A DNA stretch of 64,000 nt. It comes from Cyanobacteriota bacterium. GTDB taxonomy: Bacteria; Cyanobacteriota; Cyanobacteriia; CACIAM-69d. The notes under the pieces were generated by a model. The model ran no database searches. It had not been told where the DNA came from and saw only the letters and a program-made list of their open reading frames with translations. Positions within the stretch are counted from its first letter, which is position 1. Each line of letters starts with the position of its first letter. A program made the translations under genes and the position numbers. The DNA lies in NCBI GenBank assembly GCA_022402445.1, contig JAKRSF010000010.1:1-64000 (forward strand), in the 5' to 3' direction. Positions 55,534 to 58,978 of this stretch are shown here, piece by piece.

Positions 55534-57837
55534 TTAGTTTGCCACTAAATTCGATCCCTCCACGGAGGGCGAGGCGGGCTCAGGGGGCGCGAGGGGCAAG
55601 GTGAAATGGAAGGCGGCGCTGCGCCCCGGTTCCGATTCGATCCAGATGCGACCGCCTAGGGATTCTACGATTTTTTTGCAGATGGCTAGGCCCATGCCGG
55701 TGCAGGCGCGATCGCGGGGGGCCGCCGCCGATGGAACGGTACCCCTGGGGGCCTCTGGGGGCGAAGGCAGCCGCTGGAACAGGCGAAAGGCGCGGTCATG
55801 ATCCTGGGGGGCGATGCCCCGGCCATTGTCCACGATCGCCAGGTGGCAGTGGTGGGTGGGGCCGTCCTCTAGGGGGGGCAGATGCCGCACCCGCAGATGG
55901 GGCTGTTCCTCGCGGCGATAGCGCAGGGCATTGTCGAGCAAATTCCGAAACAGCCGTTCGAGATACTCCACCGGGGCAAACACCTGGGGCAGGGGATCCA
56001 CCTCTAGGCGGGCGGCGGCGGCGCGATCGCCCAACCCCTCCAGCACCGTCGCCACCAGTCCATCTAGGGGGGCCGGGGCCGCGATCGTGGTGGGATTAGG
56101 GGGGCCAATGCGGCTATAGGTGAGCAAATCGGCAATGGTGTCCTGGATGCGGCCCAGGCCATCGGTAATCGAATGGACATAGCGATCAGTGCCCTCATCC
56201 CCCTGGGGTCGATGCCGCTGGGCCATCAAGGCCGTGAAGGACTGCACCGTCGCCAGCACCGTTTGTAGATCCGCCGACACCACCTGGGTAAATTGCTCTA
56301 GCTCACTATTCGACCGCGCTAGGGCCGCACTGAGGTGATTGAGCTGATCCTGGGACCGGCGCAGTTCCGTCACTTCCACCACGATCGCGCCGACGTGTTG
56401 GGGCTCCCCCCGGCGATCGCACACGGGAAAGTAGGACGCAATCCAATCGCGCGATCGGTCCCCCTCGGCTGCCCCGTCCCGGCCAAGGCTCCGCAGGGCG
56501 ATGCCACTGACCGACGCCTGCTCCGTCACCACCTGCTCAAAGATCGCCGCCAGGGGATCCGCCAAATCGGGCCGCACCTCCCGCAGCGATCGCCCCACCA
56601 GGGCCGACGGCCCGCAGCCATGGACCTCCGCCATGGTGCAATTCAGGTTTAAAAAATGCCCCTCCCGGTCATGGATCGCCATGCCAATGCCCGCCTGGGT
56701 GGCCGCCGTAAAAAAGTCCTGGAGCAACTGCTCCCGCGCCGCCACCCCCGCCTGGGCAAAGTCCCGCTGTTCGATCTCCTGCTGGAGCTGCTGGTTGGCC
56801 GCCTGGAGCTTCTGGGTCCGCTCCCACACCTGCTGTTCGAGGCGATGGTTGGCCGCCGTGAGGCGATCGTACAGTTCCGCCTGCTGGATGGCGATCGCCA
56901 ACTGGATCGACAACTGCCGCAGCAAATTGCACTCAAAGGCTGCCCACTGGCGCGGCCCCCGGCAGGCGTGGATGCCCAACAGCCCCCACAGGAGCGTATT
57001 GAGGGGTTTGTCCATGTCCTCCCAGGTGGCGCGATCGGGCGGCTGGATGGGGGCGTCGAGCAAGATCGGAATCACCAGATTGGCCCGCACCCCGAACCCC
57101 TGGAGCATATTCCGGTGGCAGGGGGTCAAGTCGGCGGCGTAGATGTCGTCAATGGCCACAATGCGCCCGCTGAGGTAGGCTTCTGGGCCGTTGTCGCGGA
57201 AGCAGGTGTCATCAATGCGCTGGTGCAGGGCCGACGGCCAGGGGCCATCGAGGGCTTCCGCCACCACCTGCCCCCCCATGTCCGCGTCGAAGCGGTAGAT
57301 GAACACGCGATCGATGGCGATGACCTGGCACACCGCATGGACCGCCTCCCGCAGGATGTCGCTGAGGACGAGGCTGTTGCGGATATTGAGGGCCGTGTCG
57401 GCGATCAGTTGCTGGAGCTGCTGCTGCTGCTGGAATTTGTACTGGAGTCGCTGGCTGGCGATCGCGCGATCAAGCACATGCGCCAGTCGCTCAGCGGTGA
57501 CATTGCCCTTGACCAAATAATCCTGGGCCCCGGCCTTGATGGCGGCCACGGCGATCGCCTCACTCCCCTGGCCCGTCATCACGATCGTTGCGGGCGGCGG
57601 CACCAGGGTCAGTTTCTGCAAATCGTGCAGGAAATCGAGGCCACTGCCATCGGGCAGTTGGTAGTCCAGCACAATGGCATCGAGTTGCTGACTGCTGCAC
57701 AGGTCCAGGGCGCTCGCGATGTCCTCACAGTCAAAGATCTGATAGGTTCGGTTGTCCTGGCGGGTGAGCCAGCGTCGATAGGTCACGCGATCGGTTTCGG
57801 AGTCCTCAACGATACAAATACGGCAGGTTTCATCCAT
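55534..57837 (-). CDS. receiver-cyanobacteriochrome GAF-PAS-kinase hybrid with degenerate H-box
   Basis: 767 residues. (1) Receiver domain, about 1-125, with Asp58 acceptor and Lys110. (2) GAF domain, about 150-320, with D210-T-C212-F and the C240-H241 pair (LTPCHRNMLQGFGVRANLVIPIL), the two cysteines of DXCF-type cyanobacteriochromes. (3) Coiled coil about 325-365. (4) PAS about 370-490. (5) HisKA-like region, SELEQFTQVVSADLQTVL: the usual His is Ala522. (6) HATPase with NLLDNALRY, VDNGRGIAP and GMGLAICKKIVESLGG, intact. It is likely a photoreceptor whose own kinase cannot autophosphorylate. It stands alone, upstream of dapL on the strand. Confidence 0.85.
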   Translation of the reverse strand: MDETCRICIVEDSETDRVTYRRWLTRQDNRTYQIFDCEDIASALDLCSSQQLDAIVLDYQLPDGSGLDFLHDLQKLTLVPPPATIVMTGQGSEAIAVAAIKAGAQDYLVKGNVTAERLAHVLDRAIASQRLQYKFQQQQQLQQLIADTALNIRNSLVLSDILREAVHAVCQVIAIDRVFIYRFDADMGGQVVAEALDGPWPSALHQRIDDTCFRDNGPEAYLSGRIVAIDDIYAADLTPCHRNMLQGFGVRANLVIPILLDAPIQPPDRATWEDMDKPLNTLLWGLLGIHACRGPRQWAAFECNLLRQLSIQLAIAIQQAELYDRLTAANHRLEQQVWERTQKLQAANQQLQQEIEQRDFAQAGVAAREQLLQDFFTAATQAGIGMAIHDREGHFLNLNCTMAEVHGCGPSALVGRSLREVRPDLADPLAAIFEQVVTEQASVSGIALRSLGRDGAAEGDRSRDWIASYFPVCDRRGEPQHVGAIVVEVTELRRSQDQLNHLSAALARSNSELEQFTQVVSADLQTVLATVQSFTALMAQRHRPQGDEGTDRYVHSITDGLGRIQDTIADLLTYSRIGPPNPTTIAAPAPLDGLVATVLEGLGDRAAAARLEVDPLPQVFAPVEYLERLFRNLLDNALRYRREEQPHLRVRHLPPLEDGPTHHCHLAIVDNGRGIAPQDHDRAFRLFQRLPSPPEAPRGTVPSAAAPRDRACTGMGLAICKKIVESLGGRIWIESEPGRSAAFHFTLPLAPPEPASPSVEGSNLVAN

Positions 57838-58162: not shown

Positions 58163-58978
58163 TCACCCCAGTTCCAGGTGGGGCAGAGCCGCCATTTCCA
58201 TACCACACCCGGCGAAGTGCAAGAAGTAGTTGGTCCGATAGGCCGCCGTCAGGTGTTCGAGGAACAGGGACCGGTGCTCCCCCCGCCGATAGGCCAGCAG
58301 GGCGGGGGCATGGAGGGCTTTGTACATCATCCACAGGGCATTGAAGCGGGGATCGACCCAGGCGACGCGATCGCGCTCCAGCAGTTCATAGGACAAAAAG
58401 CGCATTTCGTAGTTCCAGAGGGGGCTCCCCGCATCCTCATATTTGTAATAAACCAACTCCAATAGATCCCGATGGTGCCGGGGCGATAGGACTAACATGC
58501 CCGTCTGCACCACCTGACTAAACTGCGGCGGCAGGCCCACCTGCTGGTAGTAGGCCGGGGCCGTCACCACCTCGGGAATGGTTGCATCCTGCTGTTGCCA
58601 CACCCGATGGCACTGCTCTAGGGCTTGGCGATAGTGGGCGGGGGTCGGTGCGCTGAATTCATCGACGGCCCCCACCCGATCCATCGGCACCGAGGCGGCC
58701 ACATCCGGGGCGTTGGGGTGGATGGCGATGTCGCTGTCGATCCACACCACCCGCTCAAAGTCCCGCAGGGCGGGCTGCCCGAGAATTAAACACTTCTGCC
58801 ACGCGGGCGATCGCGATCGCGCCCGGTCGGAGCCATCCAGTGGCTGGGTGAAGCAGATCAATTCATAGCCATGGCGCTGGGCGTAGGCTTGCCAGAGGGG
58901 GGCACACCACCGCACCCACCGATCCCGATAGGTTTCCCCGATCGCCAAGGTTGCGATCGCCCGTTTGCCCTTGCCCAT
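58163..58978 (-). CDS. GT-A-fold glycosyltransferase (GMA12/MNN10-like)
   Basis: 271 residues. KRAIATLAIGETYRDRWVRWCAPLWQAYAQRHGYELI, then FERVVWIDSDIAIHPNAPDVAASV, with the DxD metal/nucleotide-sugar motif D81-S-D83. FSQVVQTGMLVLSPRHHRDLLELVYYKYED resembles galactosyl/mannosyl transferases. Donor and acceptor are unknown. No membrane segment. The sequence around 148-153 is typical of proteins that decorate surface glycans. Confidence 0.75.
   Translation of the reverse strand: MGKGKRAIATLAIGETYRDRWVRWCAPLWQAYAQRHGYELICFTQPLDGSDRARSRSPAWQKCLILGQPALRDFERVVWIDSDIAIHPNAPDVAASVPMDRVGAVDEFSAPTPAHYRQALEQCHRVWQQQDATIPEVVTAPAYYQQVGLPPQFSQVVQTGMLVLSPRHHRDLLELVYYKYEDAGSPLWNYEMRFLSYELLERDRVAWVDPRFNALWMMYKALHAPALLAYRRGEHRSLFLEHLTAAYRTNYFLHFAGCGMEMAALPHLELG

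Follow-up and report, generated by a model that had tools for sequence, protein, structure and literature searches.

A putative cyanobacteriochrome photoreceptor whose histidine kinase-type transmitter lacks the phospho-acceptor histidine

Introduction

The function of the leftover kinase domain of plant phytochromes, which is devoid of the acceptor histidine, is still debated. Canonical plant phytochromes are bilin photoreceptors with a PAS-GAF-PHY sensor and a kinase-related domain without the conserved histidine, and the accessible part of PMC4525182 dates this loss to the streptophyte ancestor. DrBphP, also a bilin photoreceptor with a HisKA-type output, acts as a light-activated phosphatase for which the accessible part of PMC8292422 describes no detectable kinase activity; it keeps the acceptor histidine, lacks an acidic residue at H+1 and carries Glu at H+4 and Arg at H+7. 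In DivL of Caulobacter, a PAS-linked bacterial protein with a kinase fold, a tyrosine replaces the acceptor histidine and, as far as the excerpted text of PMC4211667 goes, there is no light sensor.

On the sensor side, the closest described systems are PPHK and TePixJ. PPHK of Leptolyngbya sp. JSC-1 (PDB 6oap, 6oaq, 6ob8), a dual-sensor histidine kinase, carries a receiver at its N-terminus and next to it a cyanobacteriochrome GAF domain with a D-Q-Y-F motif. The absorption maximum of its green-absorbing state lies at 562 nm (part of PMC11480761); the solved chain excludes the kinase half. TePixJ (PDB 3vv4, 4fof) carries the two cysteine motifs D-P-C-F and C-H, but is listed as a methyl-accepting chemotaxis protein and thus has a different output.

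Here, we describe a gene from a window of 64,000 nucleotides, i.e. the whole stretch of cyanobacterial DNA that was analysed, whose product shares the receiver-GAF order of PPHK and both cysteine motifs of TePixJ. It differs from PPHK by having D-T-C-F instead of D-Q-Y-F (PDB alignment) and a kinase half without the acceptor histidine. In contrast to DrBphP, the histidine is absent and an aspartate is present at H+1, and in contrast to the plant phytochromes, a single cyanobacterial gene is concerned. A search of the open-licence literature with a limited set of phrases retrieved no report of a histidine-less cyanobacteriochrome kinase, which leaves its absence unproven. The preliminary description of this DNA proposed a light-regulated pseudokinase whose sensor is a DXCF cyanobacteriochrome. 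The sequence supports this proposal well and points to a genuine light-sensing pseudokinase that combines such a sensor with a transmitter lacking its acceptor. The transmitter very probably has no kinase activity. For the protein as a whole, we tentatively favour, with somewhat less than even confidence, a light sensor with a kinase-dead transmitter that acts as a light-gated phosphatase-only output.

Gene and Domain Organization

The gene (55534..57837, minus strand, like all of its features given below) is a single open frame of 767 amino acids with the domain order REC-GAF-PAS-HisKA-HATPase, at the coordinates first assigned to it. A missed frame or start was ruled out, with one open frame running from the Met at 57837; a longer GTG start at 58206 is unneeded because the receiver match already begins at residue 7. 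All five Pfam matches exceed the curated cut-offs: Response_reg for the receiver (aa 7-118; 57484..57819; 65.1 bits), GAF (aa 158-317; 56887..57366; 60.1 bits), PAS_4 (aa 385-494; 56356..56685; 52.2 bits), HisKA for the DHp domain (aa 513-578; 56104..56301), which passes only narrowly with 28.3 bits against a cut-off of 26.9, and HATPase_c for the CA domain (aa 625-750; 55588..55965; 80.4 bits).

The Receiver and the Photosensory GAF Domain

In a phmmer search against the PDB, the best match is PPHK (6oap), which covers aa 2-331 with an E-value of 6.5e-65. The same search aligns the D-P-C-F motif of TePixJ (3vv4, 4fof) with D-T-C-F (aa 210-213; 57199..57210), which contains the candidate second-linkage cysteine Cys212, and the C-H motif of TePixJ with the canonical Cys240-His241 (57115..57120). 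Sequence conservation was followed in 36 REC-GAF relatives from loci L002-L030 and L061-L085, defined as BLAST hits (E <= 1e-20) with a start no later than aa 20 and an extension to at least aa 310. Cys212 is kept in all 36 and Cys240 in 33 of them, and the two motifs named in the preliminary description are thereby confirmed. We take them to mark the bilin cysteines of this GAF domain, as the TePixJ alignment supports. The same genome encodes PcyA, which scores above the NCBI equivalog cut-off, and two heme oxygenases; phycocyanobilin should therefore be available in the cell. With the Cys-His pair, the second cysteine in D-X-C-F and the predicted bilin supply all present, the protein fits the DXCF class of cyanobacteriochromes, and its GAF domain probably binds bilin and may undergo a reversible photocycle.

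A proline-rich insert of about 20 residues follows LVIPILLDA in the GAF domain (aa ~260-281; window positions 56973-57060, minus strand). It is absent from TePixJ and PPHK, and some relatives from cyanobacteria (L002, L005) carry inserts at this position.

The receiver with Asp58 had been recognized before, and Glu11, Asp12, Thr88 and Lys110 are also present. The column of Asp58 is Asp in only 30 of the 36 REC-GAF relatives, so receivers of a degenerate kind occur repeatedly among these photoreceptors. That all five receiver residues are intact here would suit a model in which the receiver is the working end of the protein, a sink or relay for phosphate from another system that is tuned by light, and the transmitter serves as a mere dimerisation scaffold. 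Such a scaffold would need none of the CA motifs that are kept, however, and the title of the paper on PPHK, the nearest solved relative, speaks of a dual sensor, which assigns the receiver to the input side. We therefore regard this model as hardly credible.

Loss of the Phospho-Acceptor Histidine

The H-box reads EQFTQVVSADLQTVL and contains Ala522 (codon GCG; 56272..56274) at the phospho-acceptor position, which agrees with the preliminary description in both residue and codon. For the homologue alignment at this residue that it had proposed, we used 121 kinase relatives, i.e. BLAST hits (E <= 1e-10) extending to the domain end, with identical sequences dropped. Among the 120 that have a residue at column 522, 119 have His; the sole Asn belongs to L093, which was fetched because it lacks the histidine, and the remaining relative has a gap. 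The replacement of His by Ala is beyond chance. As a danger to its own reading, the preliminary description had named homologues with His combined with a sequencing error. Homologues do carry the histidine, but the error is contradicted on two grounds. Neither CAT nor CAC shares a base with GCG at any codon position, so that three substitutions are needed and one sequencing error is no explanation for Ala522; moreover, two further hallmark residues are lost in the kinase half. Residues 501-600 contain just two further histidines, His542 and His555, which stand 20 and 33 residues beyond the acceptor site, and no evidence was found that either serves as an alternative acceptor. It follows from the sequence that phosphorylation of this H-box should be impossible.

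While the loss of the acceptor had been seen correctly, two other features of the H-box had been missed. Val527 (56257..56259) replaces the H-box proline at H+5, which is Pro in all 120 relatives that have a residue there (one gap), and the residue at H+4 is Thr526 (56260..56262), in a column with 72 Glu and 33 Thr among the 121 relatives. At H+7, where 56 relatives have Arg and 44 have Asn, the protein has Ala529. Asp523 at H+1 and Thr526 at H+4 together form the D-x-x-T phosphatase signature of HisKA proteins, which is thus kept. In Myxococcus CrdS, Thr or Asn at H+4 alone is reported to be required exclusively for phosphatase activity, and the acceptor histidine to be nearly dispensable for it: the half-life of the phosphorylated regulator was 0.7 min with the wild type, 2.6 min with the H371A variant and 53.5 min without the kinase (excerpted text of PMC3510030).

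These data suggest the following mechanism for a light-gated phosphatase. The receiver, the two-cysteine DXCF GAF domain and the PAS domain would sense light and are joined to a kinase-fold transmitter that should be unable to autophosphorylate at its H-box. In one light state, the DHp helices would dock a response regulator that has been charged by other kinases, and Thr526, the putative phosphatase residue at H+4, would assist in dephosphorylating the docked regulator. The protein's own receiver may let another kinase tune this activity. The mechanism is consistent with the TePixJ-like bilin cysteines, which are kept in relatives, with the encoded PcyA and heme oxygenases, with the loss of the histidine from an otherwise recognisable kinase and with the Asp523/Thr526 pair, and DrBphP provides a precedent for a light-activated phosphatase. 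On the other hand, the H-box proline is lost, and the matching P376A exchange in CrdS strongly lowers phosphatase activity (accessible part of PMC3510030). In addition, H+7 is Ala529, while DrBphP uses Arg (accessible part of PMC8292422), as do many of the relatives. The Glu found at H+4 in most relatives may serve as well, and Thr526 is therefore not a clear gain. Even so, the kept signature provides the leading and more specific mechanism when compared with the options of the preliminary description, namely phosphorylation in trans or action by the receiver or by binding.

The ATPase Domain and the Predicted Fold

The N and G1 boxes of the CA domain are intact, as described before, with Asn636, Asp670, Gly672 and Gly674 kept. 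This does not hold for the G2 box, which had also been called intact: in its G-T-G-x-G-L motif, Cys712 (55702..55704) takes the place of the initial Gly, in a column with 120 Gly and one Ser among the 121 relatives. Furthermore, the ATP lid between Arg689 and residue 712 (aa 690-711; 55705..55770) comprises 22 residues, in comparison to 8-9 residues in all 69 non-redundant close relatives. Asn636, Gly672, Phe684, Gly714, Gly716 and Leu717 are invariant in the relatives and kept in this protein.

An AlphaFold2 model of aa 485-760, calculated with 30 relatives, has a mean pLDDT of 87 and a pTM of 0.81. It shows a CA domain and a pair of long DHp helices; the pLDDT of the lid is about 56-65. Its best PDB matches are histidine kinases, including HK853, the RpBphP2 kinase domain and a full bacteriophytochrome. 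The DHp-CA histidine kinase fold is thus predicted to be retained, which also favours the phosphatase mechanism.

According to the alignment columns and the model, the protein has a kinase fold without the acceptor histidine and in this resembles DivL. The accessible text of PMC4211667 describes DivL as having neither kinase nor phosphatase activity, as binding ATP weakly and as binding DivK~P. A comparable docking pseudokinase would bind a phosphorylated receiver or a kinase and exert an allosteric effect without catalysis, with light altering the docking. The altered lid and G2 box, in addition to the lost acceptor, and the lost proline at 527 would agree with such a role, but the N and G1 boxes, the rest of G2 and the D-x-x-T pair are kept. 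It ranks second, as the main rival of the phosphatase mechanism, and is rather unlikely in our view.

Distribution of the Changes along the Protein

Columns that are at least 95% conserved were defined as highly conserved. In the kinase half, the protein breaks five of 21 such columns (522, 527, 639, 712 and 740) when it is compared with 120 relatives, L093 being left out. Of these relatives, 95 break no conserved column and the worst three break four. With the 69 close relatives, 42 columns are conserved, of which the protein breaks 11; 48 of the 69 leave every column unbroken, and the largest number of breaks in any one of them is nine. Because this set was chosen by a motif that contains the histidine and the proline, two of the 11 breaks are built in, and the main argument is placed on the set of 120, whose choice did not involve this motif. 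The REC-GAF half breaks only one of 26 conserved columns (Leu173 to Ile). The contrast between 5/21 and 1/26 columns is indicative of a change confined to the transmitter, and no more than indicative because each half was measured against its own set of relatives. We count this contrast in favour of the light-gated phosphatase as well.

Relatives, Paralogues and Gene Neighbourhood

Among 388 genomes of the class, no full-length homologue with more than 34% identity was found besides the gene itself, and the contigs of a wider set of genomes contained no close relative. The full-length REC-GAF relatives that were examined carry the acceptor histidine. The family is represented by six genomes. 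Synteny revealed no orthologue: four relatives have a complete dapL gene (82-85% identical), and none of them has a comparable photoreceptor gene beside it. The gene is lineage-specific in this sample. Selection on its present form cannot be shown in the absence of an orthologue, which counts against the phosphatase mechanism, as does the failure to find a partner regulator.

These negative homologue searches and the loss of three hallmark residues in one half could also mean that the gene is in decay, i.e. that the kinase half drifted after loss of function and the protein is disappearing. Yet all 767 codons are open, and the third-position GC of the kinase half (0.72-0.77) is coding-like, with values of 0.73-0.88 for receiver and GAF and 0.70-0.85 for two neighbouring genes. 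Conservation of the sensor half matches that seen in its relatives, and Asn636, Gly672, Gly714 and Gly716 of the CA domain are kept. Decay, which we rank third, is unlikely.

The histidine-less H-box was also searched for at the DNA level, with a degenerate pattern that allows any codon not starting with C at the acceptor position. All pattern counts given here are lower bounds, because several neighbouring residues were fixed and codons starting with C were missed. Across 376 genomes of the class, the non-His pattern has two matches. One is this gene; the other, L087 in G036, was rejected because it is not a kinase, and by eye it resembles a DNA methyltransferase. The His version occurs at 15 places in 14 of 59 genomes. 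A stricter non-His pattern, applied to the wider genome contigs, hits nine stretches: L093, three kinases of Bacteroidota and five that are not kinase-like.

The three Bacteroidota kinases (L089:7140-7175, minus strand; L090:5010-5045, plus strand; L095:3280-3315, minus strand) read LEQFAVVASRDLQEPLRMV. They share the H-box type and the replaced acceptor, but have Arg rather than Ala and keep the proline and the N, G1 and G2 boxes. They are 67-94% identical over the domain, so this type of H-box has survived elsewhere without the histidine, and this conserved group deserves a separate study. L093 (1450-1485, minus strand), a kinase from a gammaproteobacterial MAG, has Asn at the acceptor position (SNDLQEPL) and is otherwise ordinary.

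In its own genome, the gene stands apart from all 49 other kinases found, which keep the acceptor histidine. The kinase search gave 49 matches including the gene itself, and the stretches covering the others hold 51 frames that match the profile; 45 have His by pattern, and in four more it was recognized by eye, in unusual contexts. The remaining two are cut fragments that belong to frames included in this count. The paralogue L047 (G000:C11:358888-359469, plus strand) reads AIHTMNN, with the histidine kept and no acidic residue at H+1, which should impair its kinase activity by the rule given in part of PMC3510030. An apparent Ala at the acceptor of paralogue L055 was an alignment slip; the actual sequence is SHELRTPL.

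With at least 49 other kinases in the genome, the protein might act as a subunit of a heterodimer, in which its CA domain phosphorylates the histidine of a paralogous partner or the light input is passed on to that partner. A precedent is the pseudokinase ChrS, which pairs with HrrS and changes signalling; its damage lies in the CA domain, however, and not at the acceptor (excerpted text of PMC9491836). Of five neighbouring genes compared with NCBIfam, four could be typed, as LL-diaminopimelate aminotransferase, a SigC-type sigma factor, a Get3/ArsA-type ATPase and a peroxiredoxin. The fifth, upstream neighbour (58166-58978, minus strand; 271 aa) matched no NCBIfam family at E 1e-10 and by eye resembles a glycosyltransferase. 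None of the five was recognized as a kinase or regulator gene. This, together with the alterations in the G2 box and the lengthened lid, speaks against a heterodimer, which appears quite improbable, and also weakens the earlier suggestion that the protein phosphorylates in trans.

Conclusions

The evidence from the H-box, the ATP site and the sensor half would be compatible with the conversion of the transmitter into a dedicated light-gated response-regulator phosphatase under a fully functional two-cysteine photosensor, an outcome that we consider possible but doubtful. In such a conversion, the acceptor histidine, the H-box proline and part of the ATP site would have been given up, while the catalytic residue at H+4 was kept. 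The protein may then find use as a light-gated phosphatase tool. A bacterial photoreceptor that combines the loss of the histidine with an intact sensor would also be a small in vitro system for studying a histidine-less transmitter under light. If the conversion is real, it would constitute a cyanobacterial counterpart of the histidine loss in plant phytochromes.
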